From assembly GCA_949300115.1 (NCBI GenBank), contig CASGDD010000186.1, positions 1-33,299 of the forward strand: a stretch of 33,299 nucleotides of DNA. The letters are read 5' to 3'. The stretch is from an uncultured Oscillospiraceae bacterium (lineage in GTDB: Bacteria > Bacillota > Clostridia > Oscillospirales > Ruminococcaceae). Shown here piece after piece: positions 8,419-33,221 of the stretch (position 1 is the first letter of the stretch; every line of letters begins with the position of its first letter). The position numbers were made by a program, and so were the translations under genes. The notes under the pieces were generated by a model. That model did no database searches and was not told the origin of the DNA. It saw nothing but the letters and a program-made list of their open reading frames with translations.

Positions 8419-9579
8419 TTAGAGCATCAGGCCGTTTGCGAGCCCGGTGCGGTTGATCTGCGCCTGCACCGTGACCGAGAGGGTCAGCGCCTCACAGACG
8501 GCGGCCCAATCCTCCCCTTCCCGCTGCCAGTAGTCGGGGTCGGCCCATCGGATCCTTCGGGAAAGCCCGAGCAGGTCGCAGTGCCAGCGGCCATAGGCGC
8601 GGTCCAGCATCCGTTCGATCCCAGCCTGCAGCGTTCGATTCACCTCCGCTTCCACCCTCTTCCGATCCGCCTCCCCGAGACCTTCCGGCCGTCCCGGTTC
8701 GGTTTCGGCGATGCTGCACTGAACCGACAGGCCCATTTCGATATGGGGACCGCCTGCCAGCACGGAGGTTCGCCAGCTGGGGTCAAAGTGGAGCAGGGAA
8801 ACGGTTACCTTACCGATGCCCTCCACCTCGCAGAGCAGGGTGGCCTCCGAGAGGGTGTCATCGAGCATCAGGAAAAAATGGGTCTCTTCCGGGCTGAGAA
8901 AACCGCACAGGCGGGCGTCGGAAAAGAGGGCCGTTCCCTTCAGGCGGACCTGGTCGCGGTCAAATGGATCGGTTTCGACGCTGACCACCGGCAGCCAGGC
9001 ACTGTCCATCTCGTTGTAGAGGGTCCGCTTGATATCGATAAGCCGGGTACAGGTGTTGAGCCCCTGCCTCGCGCCCGAAATCACCGCCTGCTGCAGGTCA
9101 TCCGCTGGTGTGATATCCTGGGTTGTTTCATAGCGGAGCAGGTCCGCCGCCTCCCCGTCGGCCATCACCACCATCAGATCGGCCCGCGTCTGGTTGTCCG
9201 CCTCGAAGAAGTTTAAGAGATCGTAGAGGCTGCGCTGGGCGAGTTCGCGGCCGATGATCAGCAGGCCGTTGAGCCCAAAAAAGGGGCGGCGGGAGAGAAT
9301 TTCACCGAAGTGATCGATCGTTTCGGTGATGCTCTGCCCTTCCGCCTGTACCAGCCGGCTGTTCTGCCCGGCAATTTCGAGGCCGCCGGCGGTCGATTCG
9401 GGCTGAAAGAGCATGAGGGTGACCCGGTATCCGCCCCGGCCGTTGTCGTCGACCGCCATACCGGTGACAAAGCTGCGTTGGCTCAGCTCCATCCGCACGG
9501 GAGAGGCAAAACCCAGGATGGCGAGCAGCAATGCCGCGGCCAGCGCGAGCAGCGGTACACTAGGCAATTTCATCCGCAT
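8419..9579 (-). CDS. gerAC: Ger(x)C family spore germination protein (GerAC-like), lipobox cysteine absent
   Basis: 386 residues, third gene of a germinant-receptor operon. The C-type subunits are normally lipoproteins on the outer face of the spore inner membrane. The N-terminus is a hydrophobic segment (about 5-24) followed by the family's conserved start (E-L-S-Q-R-S-F-V-T-G-M-A-V-D). Where the family usually has G-C-W-D after the signal, this protein reads G-F-A-S-P-V, with no cysteine. The segment may instead be an uncleaved anchor. The ATG at 9579 overlaps the end of gerAB by 20 bases (another ATG two codons on), indicating translational coupling. Length is normal for the family, so it is not obviously decayed. 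Confidence 0.85.
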   Translation of the reverse strand: MRMKLPSVPLLALAAALLLAILGFASPVRMELSQRSFVTGMAVDDNGRGGYRVTLMLFQPESTAGGLEIAGQNSRLVQAEGQSITETIDHFGEILSRRPFFGLNGLLIIGRELAQRSLYDLLNFFEADNQTRADLMVVMADGEAADLLRYETTQDITPADDLQQAVISGARQGLNTCTRLIDIKRTLYNEMDSAWLPVVSVETDPFDRDQVRLKGTALFSDARLCGFLSPEETHFFLMLDDTLSEATLLCEVEGIGKVTVSLLHFDPSWRTSVLAGGPHIEMGLSVQCSIAETEPGRPEGLGEADRKRVEAEVNRTLQAGIERMLDRAYGRWHCDLLGLSRRIRWADPDYWQREGEDWAAVCEALTLSVTVQAQINRTGLANGLML

Positions 9580-10666
9580 TTCCCCGCTTTCTTTGTTTTT
9601 GCAGCGTATCGAGCAGCAGAATGGCGAGCGGCAGGCCGCAGATCAATGCGGTGGTCAGTCCCAGCGAGCTGCCGAGGGCGCGTACAGCGGTAAAGATGTC
9701 CATCCGGCAGGAGAAGAGGACGGCGAGCAGCAGCGAGGCCGCCGACGACAGCGGCAGGGCCAGACCGCCCCAGCGCCGGGGCAGCAGCCTGCGCAGGCAC
9801 TGGGCGGTGAAAAAGAGCAGGATGGCCGATTTGACAAAGGTCATCGACAGCCAGGTGACCATGTGCAGCGCGTCCATCCGATCGAAGAAGCTCAGGCGGG
9901 CGATCGAAACCATGGCGTAGAAGGGATAGCTTTTGACCGACGCATAGTCGCCCAGCACCATCCCTTTCATCAGGATAAGCCCGCTCATGAGCAGAAAATG
10001 CACCAGCAGATATTTGGGGAACCCCCGGACGGCCCCCTCCTTGACGTAGGGGACCATCAGCAGCAGGAGGGTCAGCTGGTAGCTGCCCGAGAGGATACCG
10101 CTGGCGAGGTAATCCCCGTTGGCCAGAGCACCTGCCGGTGTGACGGGACTGAGGTAGAGCGGCTCGAGGTAGGGAATCAGGGTGATCAGAATGAGCAGCA
10201 TGGTGAGCAGGAAGTAGCCGAGTACCACCATCGCGGTGCGGCAGATCGCCTGGATCCCCAGTTTTGCGGCGTACATCGCCGCGACGGCAAAGCAGGCGAG
10301 GATAAAGGGCGGATAGGTCCCCACCGCGATCACCGAGGTAAAAAAGATCTCCCCCTGCGCGAGGGTATAGCTGGTGTTGAAGAGAAAGGCCGCAAAGAGG
10401 AGGGCGGCGGTGGCCCGGCCGCAGAGGGGGGAAATGTGCGCCCCGCATTCGAGAATCCCCTCCCCCGGATAGCGCCGCAGCAGCAGGTAGAAGGGGATGA
10501 GCAGAAGCGAAATCCAGAGGCTGCCGAGCAGCAGGCTGAGGATGCCGAGCAGGGTGACATCCTCCGAGGTCTCGCTGGGCAGATAGGTGATGAAGTTGCA
10601 CAGCCGCAGCAGGAACACCATCCCATAGAGCTGACGGCAGCTGATGTGAACCGGTTTGATCGCCAT
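9560..10666 (-). CDS. gerAB: GerAB/GerBB-type spore germination permease (endospore APC-like transporter)
   Basis: 368 residues, almost entirely hydrophobic with about ten predicted membrane segments, the pattern of the GerAB subunit (APC superfamily) that binds the germinant in B. subtilis GerA. A typical N-terminal part reads I-S-C-R-Q-L-Y-G-M-V-F-L-L-R. The ATG at 10666 sits only two bases behind AAGGAGG, an unusually tight spacing. No better start is near, and the longer open frame up to 10981 runs inside gerAA in another frame. It is 7 bases after the gerAA stop and overlaps gerAC. Confidence 0.88.
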   Translation of the reverse strand: MAIKPVHISCRQLYGMVFLLRLCNFITYLPSETSEDVTLLGILSLLLGSLWISLLLIPFYLLLRRYPGEGILECGAHISPLCGRATAALLFAAFLFNTSYTLAQGEIFFTSVIAVGTYPPFILACFAVAAMYAAKLGIQAICRTAMVVLGYFLLTMLLILITLIPYLEPLYLSPVTPAGALANGDYLASGILSGSYQLTLLLLMVPYVKEGAVRGFPKYLLVHFLLMSGLILMKGMVLGDYASVKSYPFYAMVSIARLSFFDRMDALHMVTWLSMTFVKSAILLFFTAQCLRRLLPRRWGGLALPLSSAASLLLAVLFSCRMDIFTAVRALGSSLGLTTALICGLPLAILLLDTLQKQRKRGNADEIA

Positions 10667-10673
10667 CACCTCC

Positions 10674-12224
10674 TTATGGGGTTGGGGGCTGGTTGGCCCT
10701 GGGGCTGGATTCCTGCCGGTCAACCCCCGGTAGATCCTCAATCCGGGCGGGATGCCGTCCCAGCCGTTTCCAGCCCAACCGGATGAAGACATCGCGCAGC
10801 TGGCCGATGTCCAGCGGTGAAACCGGCGCGGTATAGGGGATGCCGAACGGCTGGATGGCCGCGATGTTGACCGCCAGCACCGCCATCGAGAGGGTGAGTC
10901 CGAACAGTCCGGCCGCGCCGCCGATAAAGATGAGGATGATCCGCAGCACCGCTGCCTGCGGGTAGAGCTGGGGAACGACAAAGGAGCTGATGGCCGTCAG
11001 CGCGATGACCATGATCATCGGCGCCGAGATGAGTCCTGCCCGTACCGCCGTCTCCCCGATCACCAGTCCGCCGATAATGCTGACCGCATGCCCCATCGAG
11101 GAGGGCAGCCGCAGTCCGGCTTCCCGCATCACCTCGTAGATCAGATAGGCCGCCACCGCCTCCCACATGAGCGGAAAGGGGGTTGCTTCCTGGGATACCA
11201 CCAGGTTGGCCACCAGCGTACGGGGCAGCAGTTCGGGATGGAAGAGGCAGATGGCCACATAGAGGCCGGGCAGCAGGATGGAAAAGAGAAAGCTGCCATA
11301 TTTCAGCCAGCGCAGAAAACTGCCATAGAAGGGTCGGTAGGCGTAATCGTCGATGCTTTGGAAGTTTTCGATGAAGAGGGAGGGCACCACCAGCGCATAG
11401 GGGACGCCGTCGGTCAGGATGGCAATCCGTCCCTCGAGAATCCGTCCGCAGACGGTATCGGGACGTTCGGTGACCCCCACACCCGAAAAGAAGGAGAGCG
11501 GGCCGGTCTCCAAAAAGGCCTGCAGCGTACCGGCGGTCAGGACGGCATCGACCTTCGCCTGGGTCAGCCGCCGGCGCACCGCCCGCAGCAGATTCTGCGG
11601 AACCGCATCGTTCATATAGACGAGGCAGACGTCCGTCCGGGTCCGCTCCCCCACCGTCATCAGCTCGAAGTTGAGATGGGGGTTTTTGATCCGGCGTCGG
11701 ATCATCGACATGTTGACCCGGATCGGTTCGGTAAAGCCCTCCTTGGCCCCCAGGACGTTCGCCTCGGTGGTCGGTTCGCTCACCGACCGGCTGGCATACC
11801 CCTGCATGCCGAGGGCAAGTCCCATTGTGATGCCGTCGATGAGCAGCACCACAAAACCCGACATAATGCGGGCACAGAGCTCATCGAACGTCCAGATGGC
11901 CGCCTGATCGGTGGAGAAGATGATCCCCCAGCGCATCCGGTCGAGCAGCTCGTGGGCGTCGGAGGGGTCGCGCAGGCGGAGGTCCATCAGCGGCCGGACG
12001 ATCCCCTGCAGGACATGCTGCCGGTTGGTCAGCCCCTCGATGTCGATCATCGCAATCGCCACCGCGCCCACCTTCATCCGATTGATGTGCAGATCCTTGC
12101 TGTCGGCAAACAGCCGTCTTAGGGCGATCAGGTTGTCCTCCAGCGAGCGGCCGAACTGCTCGGGGTGATTGCCCCTAAGCTGCCGCTCGCCGTCCCCCTG
12201 ATAGGGATCGTTTCGCCGTTTCAT
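10674..12224 (-). CDS. gerAA: GerA-type spore germination receptor subunit A
   Basis: 516 residues, first gene of the receptor operon. The soluble N-terminal region (about 1-260) shows family landmarks such as L-I-D-G (~146), V-G-E-R-T-R-T-D-V, and the P-F-Y-G-S-F-L-R-W segment just before the membrane part. About five hydrophobic helices follow, and then the C-terminal D-V-F-I-R pattern. GerAA subunits form pentamers acting as germinant-gated channels. The ATG at 12224 is favoured over that at 12230 because GGGAGGG then has a 6-base spacing; the frame open up to 12386 has no start signals. Forespore expression is expected, and a sigma-G-like promoter lies upstream. Confidence 0.9.
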   Translation of the reverse strand: MKRRNDPYQGDGERQLRGNHPEQFGRSLEDNLIALRRLFADSKDLHINRMKVGAVAIAMIDIEGLTNRQHVLQGIVRPLMDLRLRDPSDAHELLDRMRWGIIFSTDQAAIWTFDELCARIMSGFVVLLIDGITMGLALGMQGYASRSVSEPTTEANVLGAKEGFTEPIRVNMSMIRRRIKNPHLNFELMTVGERTRTDVCLVYMNDAVPQNLLRAVRRRLTQAKVDAVLTAGTLQAFLETGPLSFFSGVGVTERPDTVCGRILEGRIAILTDGVPYALVVPSLFIENFQSIDDYAYRPFYGSFLRWLKYGSFLFSILLPGLYVAICLFHPELLPRTLVANLVVSQEATPFPLMWEAVAAYLIYEVMREAGLRLPSSMGHAVSIIGGLVIGETAVRAGLISAPMIMVIALTAISSFVVPQLYPQAAVLRIILIFIGGAAGLFGLTLSMAVLAVNIAAIQPFGIPYTAPVSPLDIGQLRDVFIRLGWKRLGRHPARIEDLPGVDRQESSPRANQPPTP

Positions 12225-12253
12225 CGGCATCCCTCCCCTTCCTTTTTCCTTTC

Positions 12254-12283
12254 CAGCATGCCCCATTCGGCCGCCGGTCATAC
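12254..12283 (-). promoter_or_regulatory. Possible sigma-G promoter of the gerA operon
   Basis: On the minus strand GTATG (12283-12279), 18-bp spacer, CATGCTG (12260-12254). This compares with the sigma-G pattern GHATR-N17/18-CATNHTA; only the last -10 base deviates. It lies 30 bases before the gerAA start. Confidence 0.5.
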
Positions 12284-12298
12284 ATGCGGGCGGGCGCC

Positions 12299-12327
12299 GC
12301 ATAAAGCCGGACGGGCGGCGCATACTA
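12299..12327 (+). promoter_or_regulatory. Sigma-G-type promoter of the DUF421-DUF4363 operon
   Basis: GCATA (12299-12303), 17-bp spacer, CATACTA (12321-12327), a full match to the forespore sigma-G pattern GHATR-N17/18-CATNHTA. It lies 36 bases before the DUF421 ATG. No sigma-A-like pair is seen in this gap. Confidence 0.7.
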
Positions 12328-12363
12328 GCGCCAAACCCGGCAGCTGCGATCGGAGGATACGCC

Positions 12364-13086
12364 ATGACCATCACCCTGTTCCGCACACTGATCCTCTACC
12401 TGCTCATCATCTTTTCCGTCCGGCTGATGGGCAAGCGGCAGATTGGGGAACTGCAGCCCTCCGAACTGGTGATCACCATCCTCATCTCCAACATCGCTTC
12501 TCTTCCGGTCGAGAACAGCGAAATTCCCCTGATTGCCGGTGTGGTTCCCATTCTGGCGCTCGTCTGTTTTGAGGTGCTCGTTTCGGCCATCACCCTCAAA
12601 AGCCCGGCCGCCCGCCGGATCGTCGGCGGTACCCCCCGCGTCATCATCCGCGACGGCGTGATCGACCAGCGGGAGCTGCGCAACCTGCGTTTTTCGGTGG
12701 ATGATCTGATGGAGGAGCTGCGGATAGCCGGGATCTTTGATCTCCGGGAGGTTCAGATGGCGGTGGTGGAAACCAACGGCAGCATCAGTACCGCCCTCAA
12801 GACGGAGGCACAGCCGCTTACGCCGCGCGATCTGGGACAGAGGGTCTCCCCCGCTCCGCCGCCCGCGCTGGTGGTCAACGACGGCCATCTGGTACCGGAG
12901 GGCATCCGGCTCAGCTGTAAGGACCGCCGCTGGATCGAAGGCTATCTGCAGGCGCAGGAGGTGGAGCTGCGCGAGATCTTCCTGATGACCATCGATGCGG
13001 AGGGTACCCCCTACCTGGTACGCAAGGACCCGCCGCCGCGCGGCCGCCTGCCCCGGCGGCCGGCAGAGGGAGGGATGCGCCGATGA
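12364..13086 (+). CDS. DUF421 (YetF/YcaP-like) membrane protein
   Basis: 240 residues. Two to three N-terminal hydrophobic helices (about 5-20 and 55-80) enclose the conserved R-L-M-G-K-R-Q-I-G-E-L-Q motif (~20-31). A cytoplasmic or forespore-facing DUF421 domain follows (about 85-150), with I-R-D-G-V-I-D and L-R-N-L-R-F-S-V-D-D-L-M-E-E-L-R. The C-terminal ~90 residues include E-G-I-R-L-S-C-K-D-R-R-W. Molecular function is not established for the family; several members in spore-formers are linked to spores. GGAGG precedes the ATG by 7 bases. It overlaps the next gene by 4 bases, diverges from gerA and has a sigma-G-like promoter, so a role in the forespore membrane is likely (inference). Confidence 0.88.
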   Translation: MTITLFRTLILYLLIIFSVRLMGKRQIGELQPSELVITILISNIASLPVENSEIPLIAGVVPILALVCFEVLVSAITLKSPAARRIVGGTPRVIIRDGVIDQRELRNLRFSVDDLMEELRIAGIFDLREVQMAVVETNGSISTALKTEAQPLTPRDLGQRVSPAPPPALVVNDGHLVPEGIRLSCKDRRWIEGYLQAQEVELREIFLMTIDAEGTPYLVRKDPPPRGRLPRRPAEGGMRR

Positions 13087-13463
13087 AACGGGTTCTGCTG
13101 GCGGGCATCATTCTCACCCTGCTGCTCGCCTTTTGCGGCTTTTCCCTCCATCGGATCGTCTCCCTGGAGGGGGAAATCGGGCAGCGGCTGCAGGAGATCG
13201 AGCAGGCCGCCCTTTCCGGCGATGGGGCAGCGACCTTCCGATTGACCCGATCCTTCTGTCAGGACTGGGAGGGATGGGAGGCCCAGCTTGCTTCGCTTGT
13301 TCAGCACCACGCGCTCGAGCGGATCGACGAATCGGTCGCCCGGCTGCTCCCGCTGCTCGCCGCCGGCGAGGAGGGGGGCTTTCTGTCCGAGCTCGCGGTC
13401 ATCCGGGCGCTGTCCGCCCATATCAGAGAGAGCGAGCTGCCCTATCCGAAAAATCTGATCTGA
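13083..13463 (+). CDS. DUF4363-like small membrane-anchored protein
   Basis: 126 residues. One N-terminal hydrophobic segment (about 4-20, R-V-L-L-A-G-I-I-L-T) is a signal anchor. A helical, charged domain follows, with F-C-Q-D-W-E-G-W-E near 59 and a Leu-rich helix with H-I-R-E-S-E at the end. This matches the DUF4363 partner commonly found after DUF421 in Clostridia; the assignment rests on context and general shape. The ATGA overlap with the DUF421 gene implies coupled translation. Function unknown. It ends before a strong bidirectional terminator. Confidence 0.75.
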   Translation: MKRVLLAGIILTLLLAFCGFSLHRIVSLEGEIGQRLQEIEQAALSGDGAATFRLTRSFCQDWEGWEAQLASLVQHHALERIDESVARLLPLLAAGEEGGFLSELAVIRALSAHIRESELPYPKNLI

Positions 13464-13472
13464 AACGCCGAA

Positions 13473-13510
13473 AGCCCGGGAACCTCACACGCGAAGTTCC
13501 CGGGCTGTTT
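13473..13510. terminator. Terminator between DUF4363 gene and the ABC importer genes
   Basis: AGCCCGGGAAC (13473-13483) pairs with GTTCCCGGGCT (13496-13506), followed by GTTTT on the plus strand. The minus-strand T-run (TTTCGGCGTTT) is weaker. It lies between two convergent gene ends. Confidence 0.9.
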
Positions 13511-13525
13511 TATGAAAAAGGGGAT

Positions 13526-14539
13526 TTAGGAGAGCGCTTTTTCTGCAAAGCTGTTGTCGACCAGCGTCTCGAACGGCACCCGTTCGGTCAGCTCGCCCGC
13601 CGACTCCATCACATCCATCAGCCGGTTGAGGCCCTCCTCGGTCATCACCGGGGTGGACGCATAGGCATCGATCGACTTGTAGCGCTCGATGGCGCTGGCA
13701 AGCAGGGCGACATCCGAATCGGGGAACTGGGGCTGGATCGCTTCGGCGATCTCCTGTGGACTGTGCTCGGCAACCCACTGCTGTCCCCTTGCAAGGGCAT
13801 TTACAAATTTCTGGACGGTATCCCCATGTTCCTCGAGGTAGCTCGACTTGGCATAGTAGGCGGTATAGGGGATTTCGCCGGCCAGCTCGCCGATCGAGGC
13901 CACGACATAACCGCGTCCCTCCGCTTCGACCGAGGAGGCGGTCGGCTCGAACATCGTCACATAGTCGCCGGTGCCGCCGAGAAAGGCGCCGGTCATCGCC
14001 GCGTACTGGATGGAGGTGTCGAAGTTGACATTCTCACCCGGTGTCAGTCCCGCCTCTCGGACGATGTATTCGAAGGTCATGTAGGGAACACCGCCCTTGC
14101 GGCCGGGCAGCACATGCTTGCCCTCGAGCTTATCGAGACGGAAGTCGGGGTCGGGTTCCCTGGCGACAAGCAGGCTGCCGTCCCGCTGGGTCACCTGGGC
14201 AAAGACCTTGGCGTAGTCCTCCTTGCCTTCGTTGTAGATATAGATGGCAGCCTCCGGCCCGGAAAAGCCGATGTCGACCGCGTCCGAGAGAACCGCCGTC
14301 ATGACATGGTCAGCCCCCTCGCTGGTGCTGAGCTCGATGTCGAGTCCCTCCTCCTCGAAAAATCCGAGCTCGAGTGCGACATACTGGGGGGCATAGAAGA
14401 CCGAATGGGTCACCTCACTGAGCCGGACGGTGGTGCGCGCTTCGGCCTCCTCCCCACAGCCGGCGAGCAGGCCGAGGCCCACTGCCAGTGCAAGCAGCAG
14501 CGGAAGGATGCGGATCCCCTTGATTCGTACCGCTTTCAT
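13526..14539 (-). CDS. ABC transporter substrate-binding lipoprotein, NMT1/THI5-like
   Basis: 337 residues, exported lipoprotein. A positively charged start and hydrophobic core end in the lipobox L-L-A-G-C (Cys about 26). The mature domain is the NMT1/THI5 or SsuA-like fold, with F-Y-A-P-Q-Y-V-A-L-E-L-G-F-F-E-E-E-G-L early, D-I-G-F-S-G-P-E-A around 90 and P-G-R-K-G-G-V-P-Y in the middle. Family substrates include thiamine pyrimidine precursors, sulfonates, nitrate and riboflavin; nothing here singles one out. The ATG at 14539 follows AGGAGGT; upstream in-frame codons lie in the permease gene. It is the last gene of the importer operon, 1 base after the permease stop. Confidence 0.9.
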   Translation of the reverse strand: MKAVRIKGIRILPLLLALAVGLGLLAGCGEEAEARTTVRLSEVTHSVFYAPQYVALELGFFEEEGLDIELSTSEGADHVMTAVLSDAVDIGFSGPEAAIYIYNEGKEDYAKVFAQVTQRDGSLLVAREPDPDFRLDKLEGKHVLPGRKGGVPYMTFEYIVREAGLTPGENVNFDTSIQYAAMTGAFLGGTGDYVTMFEPTASSVEAEGRGYVVASIGELAGEIPYTAYYAKSSYLEEHGDTVQKFVNALARGQQWVAEHSPQEIAEAIQPQFPDSDVALLASAIERYKSIDAYASTPVMTEEGLNRLMDVMESAGELTERVPFETLVDNSFAEKALS

Positions 14540-24166: not shown

Positions 24167-25663
24167 TTAGTCCTGGGGCTCCAGCGGACAGAAGAGGGCC
24201 GATTCCTTGCGGATATCGGGGGTGGAGCCGCCGATTTCCATCACCCGGATGGCATCCTCCATCGACTTTTCCATCGCCTCTTTGCCGTATTTATCGACGC
24301 CCATCCGGTTTTTCTCGCCGTGGGTCAGACAGCCGGCGCCGCCGATGCAGCCGCCGATGCAGGCCATACCCTCGATGAAGTTGGCGTCGAGCACCTTTTT
24401 GCTCGCCTTGAGCAGCGCCGTCCGGCATTCCTCGATGCCGTCGCAGGCAATCGGCTTGAGTTCGAATTCCTTGTCCAGTCCCTGCTCCTTCAGTGCCTCC
24501 CGCACCGCGTCGGAAAGGCCGCCGCTGCGGGCAAAGATACGGCCGAAGTAGGAGGCGTTGTCGAGTACATCCTCCTCCATCGAGGCGAGGTCGAGCTCTT
24601 TGCTGTCAAACAGCGCCTGCAGTTCCTCGAAGGTGATGGCGCAATCGACAAAGGGGCGCAGGGTGTCCTTGAGCACCTCCGCCTTTTTGGCGGTGCAGGG
24701 GCCGATGAAGACCACCTTGCCGGTGGGATCGGTCTCCTTGATGTATTTGGCGATGGCGCCCATCGGGGAGAGGTTGTGGGAAACGTGGTCCCGCAGGGTT
24801 GGAAACTGTTTCTCGACATAATCGACAAAGGCCGGGCAGCAGGAGCTGGTGAGGAAGCCCTTTTCCGCCAGCTCCTTCGCCTCGTTCATGGCCACCAGGT
24901 CGGCACCCAGCGCGACCTCAACGGTGGTATAAAAGCCGAGCGCCTTGATGCCCGCGATCACCTGCCCCAGCTTGACATAGGTAAACTGGCTGGCAATCGA
25001 GGGCGCCACGATGGCATAGACCTTGTAGCGCTGGTTGTTCTGGCTCTTTTTGATCATGTCGATGACATTGAGGATGTAGGACTTGTCGCTGATCGCGCCG
25101 AAGGGGCACTGGTAGACACAGGCGCCGCAGGCGATGCAGGTATCGTTGTCGATGCTGGCCGCCTTGGTTTCGCTCATCGAAATGGCCTTGATCTTGCAGG
25201 CACGCTGGCAGGGGCGCTTGTGGTCGAGGATGGCCCCATAGGGACAGACCTTCGCGCAGCGTCCGCACTCGACGCATTTGGTCTTGTCGATGTGGGCGTG
25301 CTGATGATGGTCGAAGTAGATGGCGCCGCGGGGACAGGCCTCCTCACAGCGGTGGGCCAGACAGCCGCGGCAGGCGTTGCTGACCTCAAAGCCACCCATC
25401 GGACACTCGTCGCAGGCGATGTCGATGACCTCGATGACATTGGGGTTGTTTTTGTCTCCGCCGATGGCCAGCTTGACCCGTTCGTCCAGGATTGCGCGCT
25501 CCTTATAGACGCAGCAGCGCATGGTCGGCTCGTTACCAGGCACAATGGCTTTGGGGATATCGTGGATGGATTCGAGGAGATCGCCCTTCCAGGCATGCAT
25601 GGCGACCTCACGCAGCACGCGGTATTTCAAGTCCTGAACCTTGGTATCAAACTTTCTCATCAT
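24167..25663 (-). CDS. Monomeric [FeFe] hydrogenase with ferredoxin-type domains (group B-like)
   Basis: 498 residues. The Cys-rich N-terminal half carries several [4Fe-4S] ferredoxin motifs (for example C-V-E-C-G-R-C-A-K-V-C-P near 130 and C-I-A-C-G-A-C-V-Y-Q-C-P near 176). H-cluster motifs follow: L1 T-S-S-C-C-P-A-F (272-279), L2 G-P-C-T-A-K-K-A-E (321-329), L3 G-M-A-C-I-G-G-C (432-439). All H-cluster cysteines, including the proton-relay Cys275, are kept. The T-S-S-C-C-P-A-F form is what I associate with group B enzymes. It would reduce protons with ferredoxin or oxidise H2 in the cytoplasm. The maturases HydE/F/G are not in the window. Last gene of the operon, 32 bases after the phosphatase gene; the start is one of two adjacent ATGs. 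Confidence 0.92.
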   Translation of the reverse strand: MMRKFDTKVQDLKYRVLREVAMHAWKGDLLESIHDIPKAIVPGNEPTMRCCVYKERAILDERVKLAIGGDKNNPNVIEVIDIACDECPMGGFEVSNACRGCLAHRCEEACPRGAIYFDHHQHAHIDKTKCVECGRCAKVCPYGAILDHKRPCQRACKIKAISMSETKAASIDNDTCIACGACVYQCPFGAISDKSYILNVIDMIKKSQNNQRYKVYAIVAPSIASQFTYVKLGQVIAGIKALGFYTTVEVALGADLVAMNEAKELAEKGFLTSSCCPAFVDYVEKQFPTLRDHVSHNLSPMGAIAKYIKETDPTGKVVFIGPCTAKKAEVLKDTLRPFVDCAITFEELQALFDSKELDLASMEEDVLDNASYFGRIFARSGGLSDAVREALKEQGLDKEFELKPIACDGIEECRTALLKASKKVLDANFIEGMACIGGCIGGAGCLTHGEKNRMGVDKYGKEAMEKSMEDAIRVMEIGGSTPDIRKESALFCPLEPQD

Positions 25664-25695
25664 CTAGTCCTCTCTTTGTCCCTCACTTTTTACCG

Positions 25696-26871
25696 TTAGA
25701 AATAGCTTACCTTGACCCGCTTGCCCATCTTTTTGAGACAGTCGGACAGATCCTGCACCAGCGCCATCTTGATGCTGAAATTGATGGGCAGGTCGGGATT
25801 CTGGTGGGCGGGGTTGATGGCCCGGCCGGCGAAGATGTTGATATCGGTGGCATCCTCAAAGAGCATCCGGCTCATCAGCGAGGCACCGTCCTGGCTGCAG
25901 CTCCAGTGCTCGTAGCTCTCGTTGCCGCCCAGATAGTCCTTCGCGTACTCGAGCACCTTGTTGATGGTGATGACCCCCTCGGTCACCAGATCCACCCCGT
26001 CGATATGGGCGATCGGCGGAACATCCTTGTCGATAAAGTTGAGATCGGCCTTGAGCTCCTTGCCGAGGTATTTGGCCGCGATCGTCGAGGTAGTTCCGCC
26101 GGCGACGATGTGCTTGCCCTCCTTCGAGAAGAAGAGGGACATCATCCGGTCGCAGTCGTCCCGGTTGGAAGGGGGACCGAACAGGAGGTTGACCGGATAG
26201 CGCTTGCGTACCCGCACCACACAGGCGGTGGTGTCATCCCCCGGCTGGTACTCATAGAGCTTGTTGCATTCGTCCACCAGGATGGTCGCCAGCGTCTTGG
26301 CGGTAAATCCGACGTGGGCAATGTTCTCGAGGAAGGTGATGATATCCTCCCGTTTCCAGCCGAAGTTGTAGGCCATGCCGATGCCGGCGTGGGGACAGCC
26401 ATCGCTCATCGCGACGAAGATGTCCCCTTCCCGCAGGCCGATGGTGCTTTTGAAGATCTTTTTGCCCTCGATATTCATCTCGGTCATCGGGTACTCGTAG
26501 TTTCGTCCCTCCCGCAGCAGGATCACCAGCGGGTTGTCATACTGGATGATTTCCGCCATCTGGTTCTCCACGATATGCAGGATGGTGAAGGTCGAGTAGG
26601 CGACCCCGCGCACCGAGCAGACCGGCAGGGTTGCCGCCACCGTCGAGACACATTCCTCGATCGGCAGGCCCTCTGCAATCATAGTCGAAATGATCTTGGA
26701 TGTCAATGTCGAAAGGATGCTGGCTTTGACGCCGCTGCCCAGACCGTCCGCCAGCACGATCACCGAGGAGTTGGTGTCCGGCTGGTCGATGTAGTCGATA
26801 TGGTCGCCGCACAGCACCTCGCCCACATGGTTGATGCTCTTGTATCCGACGTCCACACAGTAGTTATTCAT
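25696..26871 (-). CDS. SpoIIE-family PP2C phosphatase with extra C-terminal region, hydrogenase-linked
   Basis: 391 residues. The N-terminal ~230 residues are a SpoIIE/PP2C Ser/Thr phosphatase domain with metal-binding aspartates in V-L-A-D-G-L-G-S-G (~41-49), A-M-S-D-G-C-P-H-A-G (~154) and G-D-D-T-T-A-C-V-V (~212). Residues about 230-391 are a second region with V-A-G-G-T-T-S-T-I-A, D-V-P-P-I-A-H-I-D-G-V-D-L-V-T-E-G and F-A-G-R-A-I-N-P-A-H; I do not recognise a named domain. No membrane segment, so it is not the sporulation protein SpoIIE itself. The start overlaps the end of the sensory hydrogenase gene by 8 bases (ATGAATAA). The genetic link suggests it is the output of that sensor, dephosphorylating an unknown protein. 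Confidence 0.88.
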   Translation of the reverse strand: MNNYCVDVGYKSINHVGEVLCGDHIDYIDQPDTNSSVIVLADGLGSGVKASILSTLTSKIISTMIAEGLPIEECVSTVAATLPVCSVRGVAYSTFTILHIVENQMAEIIQYDNPLVILLREGRNYEYPMTEMNIEGKKIFKSTIGLREGDIFVAMSDGCPHAGIGMAYNFGWKREDIITFLENIAHVGFTAKTLATILVDECNKLYEYQPGDDTTACVVRVRKRYPVNLLFGPPSNRDDCDRMMSLFFSKEGKHIVAGGTTSTIAAKYLGKELKADLNFIDKDVPPIAHIDGVDLVTEGVITINKVLEYAKDYLGGNESYEHWSCSQDGASLMSRMLFEDATDINIFAGRAINPAHQNPDLPINFSIKMALVQDLSDCLKKMGKRVKVSYF

Positions 26872-28540
26872 CGCGGATCGACTCCTTCAGATGGGAGAGG
26901 GCGGTTTTGGTTTCGGCTACCGTCTCGCCCAGCAGGGAGGCGATCTCCTGCACCACCCGCATCTGCTTGTCGACAACCGAATCGGCAATCTCGATCGTCT
27001 GGCGGCTGATATTTTCCTTCTTCTCCCGCTGGACCTCCTCCTCGGTCATATCCCGCATGATGCAGATCAGCACCCGGTATTCCTTGTCGTAGATCACCGA
27101 CTGCTCGACATAGCGCTCATACTCGGCAAGGTAGACCCGCTGGTTGCGCACCGAATGTCCCGTCCGTTTGACGTCGATAAAGACCTTGGGATCGAGCACA
27201 CGCACGACGGGTGAACCCAGCACGTCGGAGGCCATCCGCAGATTCATGATCTTGAGGGCGGCTGCGTTGATCTGCTGGACCTCGAGGTCCTCGTTGAGCA
27301 CCATCAGACCGTTGGGGGTGTTGTTGACGATGGTGTCCGAAAAGCTCTCCGCCCGCTTCATCAGAAACGGCAGGCACATCGAATAGTCCGCCTTGCCCTG
27401 GTAGATGGCGACCGCCTTGTCCCTACAGGACTCATAGCCGCAGCTGCCGCAGTTGAGCTCATCCTCCCGTTTGGTCTTGCCCATCTGACGGAGGATGCGG
27501 ATAATCTCCTCCTCGCTCGGCATCGCGTGCTGTTTTTCGAGGTAGTCCATCTGCTTGGTAAGCTTTTTCGCCTCCGGCTGGCCGATCGCGAAGTCCTTCT
27601 CCCCCGCATAGTCGGAAACCTTGATGTAGTCGCGCACCGGGCTGCGGTGGTACTTCTCCATGATCGGGCCGCCGATACAGCTGCCGACGCAGGCGGACAT
27701 CTCGATGAAGCAGTGCTGCATCCCGCCCTGGGCGATATCCCGCAGCGCGGCAATACAGTTCTCCACCCCGTCGATCGCTACATAGGTGTAGCCCGGCTCG
27801 TTGCAGGCCATCGTCTTGAGGATGCCGCCGGTCGTCGGGAAGAAGCGCGCCCGGCTCTCGGGGGTGTCATCCCGCTTCTGCTCGAGGGTAATCCCCTCTT
27901 CCTGCATCCACTCGGTCAGTTCTTCAAAGGTCAGCACCGCGTCGACCAGGCCCGCATACCGCTCGGCTTCGTCCTTTTTGGCCACACAGGGACCGATAAA
28001 GACGGTTTTGGCGCCGGGAATGCGTTCCTTGATCTGCTGGCAGTGGGCCTGCATCGGTGAGAGGACGTTGGCGAGATAGCCGAGCATCTCGGGGAAATGC
28101 TTCTGGATAAGCAGGTTGATCGAATGGCAGCAGGAGGAGATGAGGATCTCCCGATGCTCCTCATGCAGCAGCCGTTCATACTCCCGCTTGACGATGGTAG
28201 CTCCCAGCGCCGTCTCCTCGGCGTCGGCAAAACCGAGCTTGCGCAGCGCATCCCGAAGCGACTCGATCCCGATGCCGTTGTAGTTGGCGATAAAGGAGGG
28301 GGCGACACTCGCGATGACCGGTGCCCCGCTCTGGATCAGCACCCGGACCTTCTCGGTATCGTTGACGATCTCCTTGGCGTTCTGCGGACAGACCACAAAG
28401 CACTGGCCGCAGAGGATGCACTCCTCGTCCACGATGTGCGCCTGGTTGCCCGAAAACCGAATCGATTTGACCGGGCAGTTGCGGATACACTTGTAGCAGT
28501 TCTTACAGTTCGATTTTTTGAGCTTCAGGCAGCTCGCCAC
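26864..28540 (-). CDS. PAS-containing sensory-type [FeFe] hydrogenase (group C-like, HydS)
   Basis: 558 residues. Two N-terminal [4Fe-4S] motifs (Cys12/15/18/22 and Cys41/44/47/51) come first. The H-cluster domain follows: L1 I-S-S-C-C-H-S (134-140), L2 G-P-C-V-A-K-K-D-E (183-191), L3 M-S-A-C-V-G-S-C (281-288). Next is a four-cysteine iron-sulfur motif (Cys364, 367, 372, 389), then a PAS domain (about 400-505) and a helical tail. Group C hydrogenases with PAS domains are regarded as H2 or redox sensors, usually near phosphatases or kinases. A GTG start at 28540 is used, behind an AAAGGG site. The tail resembles a signalling helix, but no histidine kinase or cyclase domain is present, so output probably goes through the phosphatase encoded next. 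Confidence 0.9.
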   Translation of the reverse strand: MASCLKLKKSNCKNCYKCIRNCPVKSIRFSGNQAHIVDEECILCGQCFVVCPQNAKEIVNDTEKVRVLIQSGAPVIASVAPSFIANYNGIGIESLRDALRKLGFADAEETALGATIVKREYERLLHEEHREILISSCCHSINLLIQKHFPEMLGYLANVLSPMQAHCQQIKERIPGAKTVFIGPCVAKKDEAERYAGLVDAVLTFEELTEWMQEEGITLEQKRDDTPESRARFFPTTGGILKTMACNEPGYTYVAIDGVENCIAALRDIAQGGMQHCFIEMSACVGSCIGGPIMEKYHRSPVRDYIKVSDYAGEKDFAIGQPEAKKLTKQMDYLEKQHAMPSEEEIIRILRQMGKTKREDELNCGSCGYESCRDKAVAIYQGKADYSMCLPFLMKRAESFSDTIVNNTPNGLMVLNEDLEVQQINAAALKIMNLRMASDVLGSPVVRVLDPKVFIDVKRTGHSVRNQRVYLAEYERYVEQSVIYDKEYRVLICIMRDMTEEEVQREKKENISRQTIEIADSVVDKQMRVVQEIASLLGETVAETKTALSHLKESIRDE

Positions 28541-28610
28541 ATCCCTTTCCCCCTTCTTTCCCTTCGGCCGTCGCCGATTGCCTCAAAACCTCTGCTTCCC
28601 TTTTTCCTCT

Positions 28611-28874
28611 CTACTCGGCCTTCCTGCCGAGCGGGGTGAGCACATGCTCCTTAAAGAAATCGTCGAACGCTTCCACCTGCACGCCCTCATAGACATCGTC
28701 GTTGATCTTGACGGTCACACCGCGGCGGTTGCACCGGCCGAGACAGAAACTGCCGGCCAGCACCACCTCGTCCTGCAGTTTGTAGCGCGCGATAGCCGCC
28801 TCAAACTTCTGAACCATCTCGTACGATCCCTTGAGGTGGCAGGAACTGCCGATACATACGAAGATAAACAGCAT
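28611..28874 (-). CDS. Thioredoxin-like [2Fe-2S] ferredoxin (NuoE-like), second copy
   Basis: 87 residues, a short thioredoxin-like ferredoxin with four ligand cysteines: Cys7 and Cys12 in C-I-G-S-S-C-H-L-K-G, Cys44 and Cys48 in F-C-L-G-R-C. It should carry one [2Fe-2S] cluster and pass electrons to or from the hydrogenases, as NuoE/HydC-type subunits do. It starts one base after the stop of the other copy with hardly any ribosome site, so translation is probably coupled. The 70-base gap to the next gene (28541-28610) shows no clear terminator. Confidence 0.87.
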   Translation of the reverse strand: MLFIFVCIGSSCHLKGSYEMVQKFEAAIARYKLQDEVVLAGSFCLGRCNRRGVTVKINDDVYEGVQVEAFDDFFKEHVLTPLGRKAE

Positions 28875-28875
28875 C

Positions 28876-29118
28876 CTATTTCACCCTTGTCAGCACTTCC
28901 CGTTCGAAGAAGTCTTTGGTTGTGGCCGGCGAGAGGGAGAACTCCTGCTCGTCCAGCTTGACGCAGACACCGTTTTTGCAGTTGCCCATGCAGAAGGTCC
29001 CACCCAGTTCCACCTGATCCTGGAGCTTATGCTCCGCGATCAGATACTGCATCTCCTCGACAATCTGGCGCGAACCCTTGAGATGACAGGAACTTCCGAT
29101 ACAAATGGTGATCTTCAT
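28876..29118 (-). CDS. Thioredoxin-like [2Fe-2S] ferredoxin (NuoE-like), first copy
   Basis: 80 residues. Ligands are Cys6 and Cys11 in C-I-G-S-S-C-H-L-K-G-S, Cys43 and Cys47 in F-C-M-G-N-C. It shares the whole first motif and the K-L-Q-D core with the following gene, so the two are a tandem duplication that has since diverged. It is shorter than a full NuoE subunit (about 150 residues) and lacks that protein's N-terminal helical part. The ATG follows a GGAGG ribosome site about 10 bases upstream and lies 15 bases after the kinase-like gene. Confidence 0.88.
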   Translation of the reverse strand: MKITICIGSSCHLKGSRQIVEEMQYLIAEHKLQDQVELGGTFCMGNCKNGVCVKLDEQEFSLSPATTKDFFEREVLTRVK

Positions 29119-29133
29119 TCTTGCATGCCCTCC

Positions 29134-29886
29134 TTACTGGTAGTCGACAACATTCACCCAGGAAAGCAGGAATTCCCGCTCCTTGGGATTACCTTTGGTG
29201 GACTGGGCCGCCGCCACGATCGGCATCCATTTCTGGATATACGGTTTGGCGGTGTGGCTCTTCTCGCAGAAGAGATCGAGGTAGCGCTCGGCGCCGCTGA
29301 GATCCCCGTCCAGCCAGAAGAGCAGATAGGTGCGGGCCACATCGGCCGAGGCGTTGCCCTGGGCGGCGTGCGACCAGTCGAGGATATAGGGGGTTCCGTC
29401 CTCGGTGATGATGATATTGCTGGGGTTGAAATCCCCGTGGCAGAGCTTGTTGTGCCGGGGCATCGAATCGAGCCGGGTGTGCAGGTCATAGCGGGTGGTC
29501 GCGTCCAGATCGGCGTCCTCAATCTGCCGGTCGAGCTTCTCCCGCAGGCGGTTGAGCAGCGGAACCCGCATCGCGTGGACCTGCATCTGCAGATCGACAA
29601 AGAGGTTCAGATACTCCTCCTTCTTCTCGGGGTGCTCCTGCATCAGCTGCGCGAGCGTTTTACCCTTGATAAAGTCGGAGACGATCGCCCATTTTCCCTC
29701 GATCGAGGTGACTTCTTTGATCTTGGGGATGTGGAGGGTGGTGTTCTCCTCCACCCGGGCCTGGTTGAGCGCCTCGTTGAGGATATCCGACTTGGCGAAA
29801 TCCTCCCCGAAGACCTTGATTACCAAATCCCCATCCCGATAGACGGTCTTGGAGGTTCTGACAGCAATGACACGATCAAAGTTCAC
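29134..29886 (-). CDS. APH-fold phosphotransferase (aminoglycoside/choline kinase-like), substrate unknown
   Basis: 250 residues. Protein-kinase-like fold: ATP-binding Lys24 in L-V-I-K-V-F, catalytic Brenner motif H-G-D-F-N-P-S-N (His150, Asp152, Asn157), metal Asp170 in I-L-D-W-S-H. It lacks the signature of any known aminoglycoside resistance enzyme that I can place, so it should not be read as resistance. The GTG start at 29886 follows AAAGGGGGAA and overlaps the end of adhE by 11 bases; an upstream frame to 29943 lies within adhE. Its place between AdhE and hydrogenase-linked proteins suggests a metabolic or signalling kinase. It may even act against the operon's own phosphatase, which is speculation. 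Confidence 0.87.
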   Translation of the reverse strand: MNFDRVIAVRTSKTVYRDGDLVIKVFGEDFAKSDILNEALNQARVEENTTLHIPKIKEVTSIEGKWAIVSDFIKGKTLAQLMQEHPEKKEEYLNLFVDLQMQVHAMRVPLLNRLREKLDRQIEDADLDATTRYDLHTRLDSMPRHNKLCHGDFNPSNIIITEDGTPYILDWSHAAQGNASADVARTYLLFWLDGDLSGAERYLDLFCEKSHTAKPYIQKWMPIVAAAQSTKGNPKEREFLLSWVNVVDYQ

Positions 29887-32506
29887 AATCGGTTCCCCCT
29901 TTGGTTCCGTAATAGGCATTGAGGTACATCTGCTTGATCTCACGCATCAGCGGATAACGCGGATTGGCCGCGGTGCACTGGTCATCGAACGCCTGCTCGA
30001 CCATCGCGTCGAGGCGGTCGAGGAAGTCCTTCTCCTCCACCCCGTAGTCGCGGATGGTCTTTTTGATGCCGACCTGCTCCTTGAGCGCGTCGATGGCGGC
30101 AATCAGGCTCTCCAGCTTCTCCTCATCGGTCTTGCCGGACAGGCCGAGCGCATCGGCGACCTCGGCATAGCGGGCGAGGGTGTGCGGGTGGTCATACTGC
30201 GGGAAGGTTCCCATCTTGGTGGGTGTCTCGGAGGCGTTGAAGCGGAGCACCTCGTCGATCATCAGCGCGTTGGCGATGCCGTGAGCGAGATGGTGGAAGC
30301 TGCCCAGCTTGTGCGCCATCGAGTGGCAGACCCCGAGGAAGGCGTTGGCAAAGGCCATGCCGGCCATCGTGGCGGCGTTGGCCATCTTCTCTCTCGCCTC
30401 GACGTCATGCGCACCGTCCGCGTAGGCGCGCGGCAGGTATTTGAAGATGACGCGCAGCGCCTGCAGCGCCAGGCCGTCGGTATAATCGGTTGCCATCATC
30501 GAGGCATAGGCCTCGAGCGCATGGGTCACCGCGTCGATACCCGAAGCGGCGGTGAGGCCCTTCGGCGCGGTCATATGCAGGTCGGCGTCGACAATCGCCA
30601 TGTTCGGCAGGAGCTCATAGTCGGCCAGCGGGTACTTGACGCCGCTCTGCTCGTCGGTGATGACCGCGAAGGGGGTCACCTCCGAGCCGGTACCGGCCGA
30701 GGTCGGCACCGCGATGAAGTAGGCCTTCTCGCCCATCTTCGGGAAGGTATAGACCCGCTTGCGGATATCCATAAACCGCATGGCCATGTCCATAAAGTCG
30801 ACCTCGGGGTGCTCGTACATCACCCACATGATCTTGCCGGCGTCCATCGCCGAACCGCCGCCGAGCGCGATGATGCAGTCGGGCTGGAAGGCGGTCATCT
30901 GCGCAGCGCCCGCCTTGGCACAGGCGAGGGTGGGATCCGGCTCAACCTCAAAGAAGGTCTCGTGGGCGATGCCCAGCTCATCGAGTTTGTCGGTAATCGG
31001 CTTGGTGTAGCCGTTCTGATAGAGGAATTTGTCGGTGACGATGAACGCCTTCTTTTTGTGCATGACGTTCCCCAGTTCATCCAACGCCACCGGCAGGCAG
31101 CCTTTCTTGAGATAGACCTTTTCGGGGGCTCTAAACCACAGCATGTTTTCTCTCCTCTCGGCGACCGTCTTGATGTTGAGCAGATGCTTGACGCCAACGT
31201 TCTCCGAGACCGAGTTGCCGCCCCAGGAGCCGCAGCCCAGCGTCAGCGAGGGCTTCAGCTTGAAGTTGTAGAGGTCGCCGATGCCGCCGTGTGCCGCGGG
31301 GCAGTTGATAACCACCCGGCAGGTCTTCATGCGGGCCGCGAAGCGGTCGATCTTCTCCCGCTCCCGGATGGCGTTGACAAAGAGGGAGGAGGTGTGTCCG
31401 ATGCCGCCGTCCTCCACCAGCCGCTCAGCCTTGTCGAGGGCGTCCTCAAAGCTGGAAGCACGGTACATCGCCAGCACCGGCGAGAGCTTCTCGTGGGCAA
31501 ACTCCTCGCTGATGTCGACGCTTTCCACCTCGCCGATCAATACCTTGGTCGTTTCAGGCACCGTCACCCCCGCCATCGCGGCGATCTTGGCTGCCGGCTG
31601 TCCGACAATTTTGGCGTTGAGCGCGCCGTTGATGAGGATGGTCTTGCGGACCTTTTCGGTCTCATCCGGACGGAGCAGGTAACAACCGCGGTCGGCAAAT
31701 TCCTTGCGCACCGCGTCGTAGATGTCGTCAAGCACAATGACCGACTGTTCGGAGGCACAGATCATGCCGTTGTCAAAGGTCTTCGAGTGGATGATCGAGT
31801 TGACCGCCAGCTGGATATCGGCCGAGCTGTCGATGACGGCAGGGGTATTGCCCGCGCCGACACCGATCGCCGGCTTGCCGCTCGAGTAGGCCGACTTGAC
31901 CATGCCGGGACCGCCGGTCGCCAGGATGACATCCGCCTCCCGCATAACCGTCTGGGTGAGCTCGAGCGAGGGGATGTCGATCCAGCGGATGATGCCGTCG
32001 GGCGCGCCGGCCGCAACCGCCGCCTCAAGCACCACCTTGGCCGCCGCAATCGTGCTCTCCTTCGCACGGGGGTGGGGGCTGATGATGATGCCGTTGCGGG
32101 TCTTTAAGGAGATCAGCGTCTTGAAGATGGCCGTCGAGGTGGGGTTGGTGGTCGGGATGACCGCCGCGACCACCCCCAGCGGTTCGGCAATCGTCTTGGT
32201 GCCGAAGGCGGTGTCCTCCGCGATCACCCCGCAGGTTTTGGTGTTCTTGTAGGCGTTGTAGATATACTCGGAGGCGTAGTGATTTTTGATGACCTTATCC
32301 TCCACCACGCCCATCCCGGTCTCCTCGACCGCCAGCTTGGCCAGCGGGATGCGGGCCTTGTTGGCAGCTAAGGCCGCCGCCAGAAAGATGCGGTCGACCT
32401 CCTCCTGGGAGTAGCGGGCAAACTTCCGCTGCGCCTCACGGAGTTCCGCAAGAGCCGTTTCCAGTTTGTCTACACTGTCGATGATATCATATTTTTTGGT
32501 ATTCAT
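29876..32506 (-). CDS. adhE: Bifunctional acetaldehyde-CoA/alcohol dehydrogenase
   Basis: 876 residues, the normal AdhE length. The N-terminal aldehyde dehydrogenase domain (about 1-440) has catalytic Cys250 in D-N-G-M-I-C-A-S-E-Q and a G-A-G-N-T-P segment. The C-terminal iron-dependent alcohol dehydrogenase domain (about 450-876) has G-G-G-S-A-M-D-A-G-K and the metal histidines in H-K-L-G-S-F-H-H-L-A-H-G. It converts acetyl-CoA to ethanol through acetaldehyde, oxidising two NADH, and in this family assembles into spirosomes. The ATG at 32506 follows AGGAGA; its first base is the last base of the rex stop codon (TGATG). Control by Rex is expected from the operator upstream of rex. Confidence 0.97.
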   Translation of the reverse strand: MNTKKYDIIDSVDKLETALAELREAQRKFARYSQEEVDRIFLAAALAANKARIPLAKLAVEETGMGVVEDKVIKNHYASEYIYNAYKNTKTCGVIAEDTAFGTKTIAEPLGVVAAVIPTTNPTSTAIFKTLISLKTRNGIIISPHPRAKESTIAAAKVVLEAAVAAGAPDGIIRWIDIPSLELTQTVMREADVILATGGPGMVKSAYSSGKPAIGVGAGNTPAVIDSSADIQLAVNSIIHSKTFDNGMICASEQSVIVLDDIYDAVRKEFADRGCYLLRPDETEKVRKTILINGALNAKIVGQPAAKIAAMAGVTVPETTKVLIGEVESVDISEEFAHEKLSPVLAMYRASSFEDALDKAERLVEDGGIGHTSSLFVNAIREREKIDRFAARMKTCRVVINCPAAHGGIGDLYNFKLKPSLTLGCGSWGGNSVSENVGVKHLLNIKTVAERRENMLWFRAPEKVYLKKGCLPVALDELGNVMHKKKAFIVTDKFLYQNGYTKPITDKLDELGIAHETFFEVEPDPTLACAKAGAAQMTAFQPDCIIALGGGSAMDAGKIMWVMYEHPEVDFMDMAMRFMDIRKRVYTFPKMGEKAYFIAVPTSAGTGSEVTPFAVITDEQSGVKYPLADYELLPNMAIVDADLHMTAPKGLTAASGIDAVTHALEAYASMMATDYTDGLALQALRVIFKYLPRAYADGAHDVEAREKMANAATMAGMAFANAFLGVCHSMAHKLGSFHHLAHGIANALMIDEVLRFNASETPTKMGTFPQYDHPHTLARYAEVADALGLSGKTDEEKLESLIAAIDALKEQVGIKKTIRDYGVEEKDFLDRLDAMVEQAFDDQCTAANPRYPLMREIKQMYLNAYYGTKGGTDCEL

Positions 32507-33183
32507 CAATCCGTCTCCTTTATCGATTGTTCTTTCGAATCCTGTTGCCTGTTTTGTTCGGTCAGCCGGCCGGATAGATAGGCCAGCGAAAGGGCCATAT
32601 CCTCCTGCCGGATGAGGACGGTATCCGGCGCGCGAAGAAAGGCGGGCGCGAAGTTCCAGATGGCCCGGATGCCGCTTTGGACCATCAGGTCGCATGCCTG
32701 TTGCGCCTGCTCCCCCGGTACGGTGAGGATGCCAATCCGCACCGACCGCTGTCTGCAGAAGTCGGGCAGCGCTTCCACCGGCAGGATGGGCTTGCCCTCT
32801 TCGGTCGAGCCCCTGCGCGCCGCGTCGGTATCGAAGGCCGCGACGATCTCCAAGCCGTAGTTGCGAAAACCGCCGTAACCCAGCAGCGCCCGCCCGAGGC
32901 GGCCGGCCCCCATCAGTACCGCCGATTTGCGCACCCGGTAGCCGAGGCTCTCCTCCAGCCGGTCGATCAGCTCGCCGATCCGGTAGCCGACCTTCGGCTT
33001 GCCGCCGGCCGCGATGGCGGCCAGGTCCTTACGCACCTGAATCTCCCCCATCGACATCGCACCGGCGATGGCCGACGAGGAGATCCGGTCGTCCGGGTGA
33101 CAGGGCAGCATCCGCAGATAGCGCAGATACATCGGCAACCGTTCGGCTGTCGCCCGGGAAATGGTCTGCTGCAGACCGCTCAC
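32506..33183 (-). CDS. rex: Redox-sensing transcriptional repressor Rex
   Basis: About 225 residues. The N-terminal winged helix (R-A-T-A-E-R-L-P-M-Y-L-R-Y-L, then Q-V-R-K-D-L-A) matches Rex. The Rossmann NAD(H) domain has G-A-G-R-L-G (~90-95). The domain-swapped C-terminal helix is present. Rex binds DNA when NAD+ is high and leaves when NADH rises. The start is uncertain: GTG at 33183 gives the usual N-terminus length; TTG at 33204 extends it; the best ribosome site (AAAGGGAGG) would suit a CTG at 33174. It overlaps adhE by one base. An 18-bp Rex operator lies about 40 bases upstream, indicating autoregulation of the rex-adhE operon. Confidence 0.93.
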   Translation of the reverse strand: MSGLQQTISRATAERLPMYLRYLRMLPCHPDDRISSSAIAGAMSMGEIQVRKDLAAIAAGGKPKVGYRIGELIDRLEESLGYRVRKSAVLMGAGRLGRALLGYGGFRNYGLEIVAAFDTDAARRGSTEEGKPILPVEALPDFCRQRSVRIGILTVPGEQAQQACDLMVQSGIRAIWNFAPAFLRAPDTVLIRQEDMALSLAYLSGRLTEQNRQQDSKEQSIKETD

Positions 33184-33221
33184 CTCCCTTTGGATCCTTC
33201 CCAACAGAGCGTCCGCTCCAT

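Follow-up and report, generated by a model that had tools for sequence, protein, structure and literature searches.

The window, i.e. the whole stretch of DNA analysed here, comprises 33,299 nt of an uncultured Oscillospiraceae bacterium (Ruminococcaceae; GCA_949300115.1, contig CASGDD010000186.1, positions 1-33,299 of the forward strand), whose draft genome amounts to 2.15 Mb and is 89.8% complete. The segment of interest lies between a gerA operon and a divergently oriented pair of genes for DUF421 and DUF4363 proteins. The features of the locus are the following:

8419..9579, minus strand: GerAC (Spore_GerAC, PF25198 and PF05504; Pfam 2.2e-32 and 9.1e-23)
9560..10666, minus strand: GerAB (Spore_permease, PF03845; Pfam 7.1e-13)
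10674..12224, minus strand: GerAA (PF03323; Pfam 4.4e-154), the first gene of the gerA operon
12225..12363, no strand: divergent intergenic region with both putative promoters and both ribosome-binding sites
12231-12238, minus strand: ribosome-binding site on the GerAA side, GGGGAGGG
12254..12283, minus strand: forespore-like promoter GTATG-N18-CATGCTG facing the gerA operon (motif, weaker)
12299..12327, plus strand: sigma-G-class forespore promoter GCATA-N17-CATACTA facing DUF421-DUF4363 (motif; recurs upstream of DUF421 in relatives)
12352-12357, plus strand: ribosome-binding site on the DUF421 side, GGAGGA
12364..13086, plus strand: DUF421 (YetF C-terminal domain, PF04239; Pfam 1.2e-33), a membrane protein of 240 aa
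13083..13463, plus strand: DUF4363 (PF14276; Pfam 3.1e-15), 126 aa
13470..13508, plus strand: GC-rich hairpin 3' of DUF4363 (fold energy)

GerAA, GerAB and GerAC follow each other in this order according to Pfam, i.e. the genes on the minus strand constitute a gerA germinant receptor operon. The ATG at 12224 is the likelier start of GerAA, with an alternative ATG at 12230. Both proteins of the divergent pair belong to their families, DUF421 scoring 115.8 bits with PF04239 (curated cut-off 23.6) and DUF4363 scoring 56.5 bits with PF14276 (curated cut-off 27.5); the DUF421 protein also matches YetF of PDB entry 3C6F (5.2e-14). The stop codon of DUF421 and the start codon of DUF4363 overlap in ATGA. 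The hairpin behind DUF4363 is the likely end of the transcription unit: the 60-nt fold of 13461-13520 has an energy of -25.4 kcal/mol (z -5.3), and a simple scan missed the structure, its loop being too long for that scan. The draft genome has a single DUF421, a single DUF4363 and a single gerAA, all at this locus. Farther along the window (24167-33204), inspection of the ORF translations by eye pointed to iron-sulphur hydrogenase-like proteins, a phosphatase-like protein, an AdhE-like enzyme and a Rex-like regulator.

The consensus of sigma-G promoters is GHATR at -35 and CATNHTA at -10, separated by 17 or 18 bp. A preliminary description of this DNA had noted a plus-strand site that fits the pattern fully and a minus-strand site that departs from it in one base, and the motif scan confirmed both statements. 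The plus site consists of GCATA (12299-12303), a 17-bp spacer and CATACTA (12321-12327), and it ends 36 bp before the DUF421 ATG (12364). The minus site consists of GTATG (12283-12279), an 18-bp spacer and CATGCTG (12260-12254), the last base being G instead of A, and it ends 29 bp before the likelier GerAA ATG. Both distances to the start codons are as one would expect of promoters. A gap of 15 bp separates the two -35 elements. Both strands of the entire window contain these two matches only to the relaxed pattern GHATR-N17/18-CATNHTR. When the 133-bp intergenic sequence (12231-12363) was shuffled 20,000 times with its dinucleotides preserved, the strict plus site occurred 11 times, the relaxed minus site 21 times and both together not once. 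Scored with a less strict weight matrix, the plus and minus sites have p values of 0.013 and 0.09, respectively; the minus motif taken alone would thus be modest evidence for a promoter. A scan of 12180-13560 found no sigma-70-type promoter.

The relaxed pattern occurs 35 times in the 2.15-Mb draft genome, as against 7 times for the reversed pattern. Seven of the 35 matches end in A, the plus site of the window among them. One of these strict sites lies 24 bp before a gene for Mn catalase (G000:C27, L036) and another lies 37 bp before spoIIR (G000:C40, L038), both of which are genes of forespore regulons elsewhere; for the remaining four no clear forespore gene was found downstream.

The conservation of the locus was investigated in 61 related genomes, the present one included. 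DUF4363 was found in 53 of them, and the surroundings of the other 52 were fetched; gpr, which was used solely as a sign of sporulation, was found in 49 of the 61 by a gpr search. DUF421 is situated directly 5' of DUF4363 on the same strand in all 53 cases. A divergent gerAA 5' of DUF421 is present in 25 of the 53, i.e. in 24 of the 34 genomes of the window's own family that have the pair (37 were searched, three being without a DUF4363 match) and in 1 of 19 elsewhere in the order. All counts given here, also those below, treat related genomes as independent and are uncorrected for shared ancestry. In 20 of the 24 linked family genomes no gerAA was found besides the linked one. The GerAA proteins at the linked loci share 35-54% identity with that of the window, which means that the arrangement has outlived much sequence change. 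The linkage is not shown in the other 28 genomes. In one of these, G007, the locus runs into the end of its contig; the upstream genes of the remaining 27 vary. In G007 (contig C222; L093, L118) a SASP gene is located ca. 1.5 kb from the DUF421-DUF4363 pair. The open-access literature searched yielded no paper that names a conserved linkage of gerA, DUF421 and DUF4363.

The upstream regions of these genes were compared by taking the best sigma-G-type match within 110 bp and evaluating it against shuffles of each region, the start codons of the relatives being set by alignment or by ribosome-binding-site score and not by annotation. G007, in which DUF421 is cut by the contig end, was left out, so that the DUF421 set comprised 52 loci. 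Here the sigma-G matrix gave p<=0.05 in 25 and p<=0.01 in 13 of the 52 regions (Fisher 6.8e-21), and other shuffles gave 23/52 and 12/52 at the same cut-offs. Neither DUF421 (0.11, 52 loci) nor GerAA (0.62, 25 loci) showed enrichment of the sigma-A matrix in its upstream regions, and a vegetative promoter was rejected on these values and on the empty sigma-70 scan. A control motif with its elements in reversed order was also enriched 5' of DUF421, i.e. base composition contributes some false signal, albeit far less than the real motif does (3.5e-5 vs 6.8e-21). The antisense strand of DUF421 regions that have no gerA was not enriched for the sigma-G matrix (0.14).

Two further sets served as yardsticks. 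The regions upstream of recA (30 loci) were enriched for sigma-A (5.4e-10) and not for sigma-G (0.057), those upstream of SASP genes for sigma-G (2.4e-5) and not for sigma-A (0.55); of the 30 SASP loci fetched 23 were used, as in the others the start codon was set wrongly by a rough caller (one of them without a SASP motif). In other words, the matrix separates a vegetative set from a forespore set, and the DUF421 upstream regions behave like the latter. In 17 of 29 SASP loci (L115-L144; L121 in the present genome) the DNA before the SASP gene contains an element (G)CAAACGC, a few bases 3' of a -10 that resembles ATACTA/ATAATA. It sits near the expected transcription start and may be a conserved element of forespore genes that marks the start site or binds a regulator; the window does not contain it.

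Forespore control of a DUF421-DUF4363 pair is already known from C. difficile. According to PMC3789822, CD1789 (DUF421 family) and CD1788 (conserved hypothetical) form an operon that has a sigma-G promoter and belongs to the sigma-G regulon. The CD1789 protein was detected in spores, and the sigG/wild-type ratios of 0.61 and 0.43 correspond to a modest effect, with no sigF ratio listed. We traced CD1788 by searching a peptide printed in PMC6174930, which led to a C. difficile contig: CD1788 is a DUF4363 protein (E 3.4e-23), and that genome has a single DUF421, directly 5' of the DUF4363 gene. Upstream of this DUF421 (L267) there is GAATT-N17-CATAATA (p=0.02). The likeness to the window thus extends to gene order, a forespore-type promoter upstream and, for the C. 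difficile pair, membership of the sigma-G regulon as given in PMC3789822. The difference is that no gerA lies beside CD1789-CD1788, whereas the pair of the window shares its intergenic region with gerA; C. difficile is in fact reported, in the same source, to be without homologues of the gerA, gerB and gerK operons. The fact that it nevertheless keeps the pair under sigma-G means that the role of the pair must be GerA-independent at least in that species. A shared intergenic region, from which the preliminary description predicted a forespore membrane role of the pair, is not in itself proof that the two operons function jointly, given the C. difficile pair without gerA and the 28 of 53 relatives in which the linkage is not shown.

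Taken together, the segment is very probably a divergent pair of forespore promoters, read by sigma-G and possibly also by sigma-F. A -10 element that starts with C and ends with A is a mark of sigma-G, and sigma-G is the favoured reading over sigma-F or dual use. A main role of sigma-F, i.e. transcription early in the forespore, or reading by both factors is less probable but a serious possibility. The -10 of the window is preceded by G and terminates in A, a mixture also described for spoVT (PMC3789822), and B. subtilis yetF is reported under sigma-F (PMC10126465). In addition, one of the strict matches in this genome precedes spoIIR, which in C. difficile is listed among the genes of the sigma-F regulon (PMC3789822). 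As for CD1789, a SigF-type consensus has been proposed upstream of it, but the gene depended on SigG and not on SigF (PMC7438776). The back-to-back forespore promoters of the preliminary description are supported on the DUF421-DUF4363 side by motif, position and gene order in relatives and by the C. difficile counterpart, and less strongly on the gerA side; the sequence at this locus does not tell a sigma-G from a sigma-F promoter.

The gerA side deserves separate consideration. It is unlikely, in our estimate, that the DUF421 side alone is a forespore promoter and that the minus match is due to chance, with gerA driven from elsewhere in the intergenic region. Such a reading would fit the p value of the minus site and the fact that only 6 of the 25 gerA-side regions reach p<=0.05 with the sigma-G matrix. 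Against this, 4 of the 25 reach p<=0.01 and the set as a whole is enriched (Fisher 1.8e-6, reversed-order control 0.033) for the sigma-G and not for the sigma-A matrix; no sigma-70-type promoter was found nearby, and gerA operons are established sigma-G targets.

The distribution of DUF4363 also bears on the nature of the locus. Among 398 genomes across the phylum DUF4363 occurs in 210 and SpoIVA in 340: 207 genomes have both, 3 have DUF4363 only, 133 have SpoIVA only and 55 have neither (Fisher 7e-17, uncorrected for ancestry). The three carriers without a SpoIVA match are G131, G362 and G416. In the B. subtilis control genome the match to the DUF4363 model stayed below its cut-off. Chance matches next to a pair of vegetative membrane genes, with the gerA neighbourhood inherited without meaning, are very improbable even though DUF421 is present in non-sporulating bacteria (E. 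coli and Lactococcus among the control genomes) and many relatives have varying genes in place of a demonstrated gerA, since the shuffles and genome-wide motif counts, the motif enrichment with its controls, the near confinement of DUF4363 to SpoIVA-bearing genomes and the sigma-G regulon data for C. difficile all speak against it.

We also looked at 40 distant DUF4363 loci, which were hand-picked from high-scoring matches in different families and are not a random sample. DUF421 was directly upstream in 39 of them; a directly divergent gerA was found in none of the 40. In one genome (G313, L217) a gerAA lies just 3' of DUF4363 on the same strand, and a second gerAA ca. 2.6 kb upstream of DUF421. 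In the 39 loci outside the order the sigma-G motif (1.7e-5) and the reversed control (3.5e-5) were about equally enriched, so the motif evidence is weak there.

A model of DUF4363, built from a two-sequence alignment, has a mean pLDDT of 87 and shows a long N-terminal helix followed by three helices; the protein is predicted to have an N-terminal membrane helix and a four-helix bundle. A profile search of solved structures with 40 DUF4363 proteins gave only weak matches to helical bundles (best E 0.0033). A fold search with the model gave no match at E<=0.001, and since it returned only generic four-helix bundles with a best Z of 11.9, below the caution level of ca. 13 for bundles, no function was read from it. 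In the open-access literature searched we found no paper that refers to DUF4363 by name or Pfam number, and none that ties it to sporulation.

The DUF421 protein is of the YetF type. YetF proteins are under sigma-F or sigma-G control (PMC10126465) and are located in the spore inner membrane, where they affect heat resistance and germination (PMC10126465, PMC12548441; the inner-membrane location is published for B. subtilis YetF and YdfS). B. subtilis YetF, YdfS, YkjA, YrbG and YdfR share with the window's protein the DUF421 domain, forespore expression, the inner membrane and effects on resistance and germination (PMC10126465, PMC12548441), the expression, location and effects being presumed for the latter. 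They differ in being five paralogues, as compared with one DUF421 in this draft genome, and a DUF4363 partner is not mentioned in the available parts of the two papers. The 2duf operon of spoVA2mob likewise is a forespore operon for a DUF421 domain protein with a sigma-G promoter in front, but 2Duf carries a fused DUF1657 and sits with spoVA genes instead of gerA (PMC10126465). Both gerA operons and DUF421 genes are already known to be preceded by forespore promoters. The preliminary description took both proteins of the pair to be of unknown function; this does not hold for DUF421, and only DUF4363 is uncharacterised in the papers searched.

We propose that RNA polymerase with sigma-G (possibly also sigma-F) would transcribe DUF421-DUF4363 rightward and gerAA-AB-AC leftward, this use of the promoters in the present organism being deduced from the comparisons above. 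Late in sporulation a single compartment would then produce the germinant receptor together with both membrane proteins, and all of them would go to the spore inner membrane, a location presumed for these very proteins by analogy with YetF. DUF421, being YetF-type, most likely stiffens or organises the membrane and thereby modulates resistance as well as germination through the receptor. The obligate partner of DUF421 is most likely DUF4363, with one predicted N-terminal helix anchor and a helical bundle; that the two act together is suggested by their near-universal adjacency. A coupling of the pair with GerA is conjectural, and a direct role with GerA is no more than suggested by the linkage. 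A tentative and rather doubtful extension is that DUF421-DUF4363 and the germinant receptor, usually the sole one in genomes of the window's family, work there as a single module, the pair serving GerA as its dedicated companion in the inner membrane of the spore (an accessory for receptor clustering or membrane stiffening, with DUF4363 as the helical partner), while the divergent promoter keeps the amounts in step. We note that YetF foci do not fit the germinosome and that for the single focus seen with B. megaterium YdfS the overlap with a receptor was indeterminate (PMC12548441).

DUF4363, nearly confined to SpoIVA genomes and sitting behind a YetF-type gene, is a candidate spore inner-membrane protein. 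The conserved linkage with gerA makes it possible to test directly whether germinant receptors are acted on by YetF-type proteins, which was left open for B. megaterium YdfS (PMC12548441).
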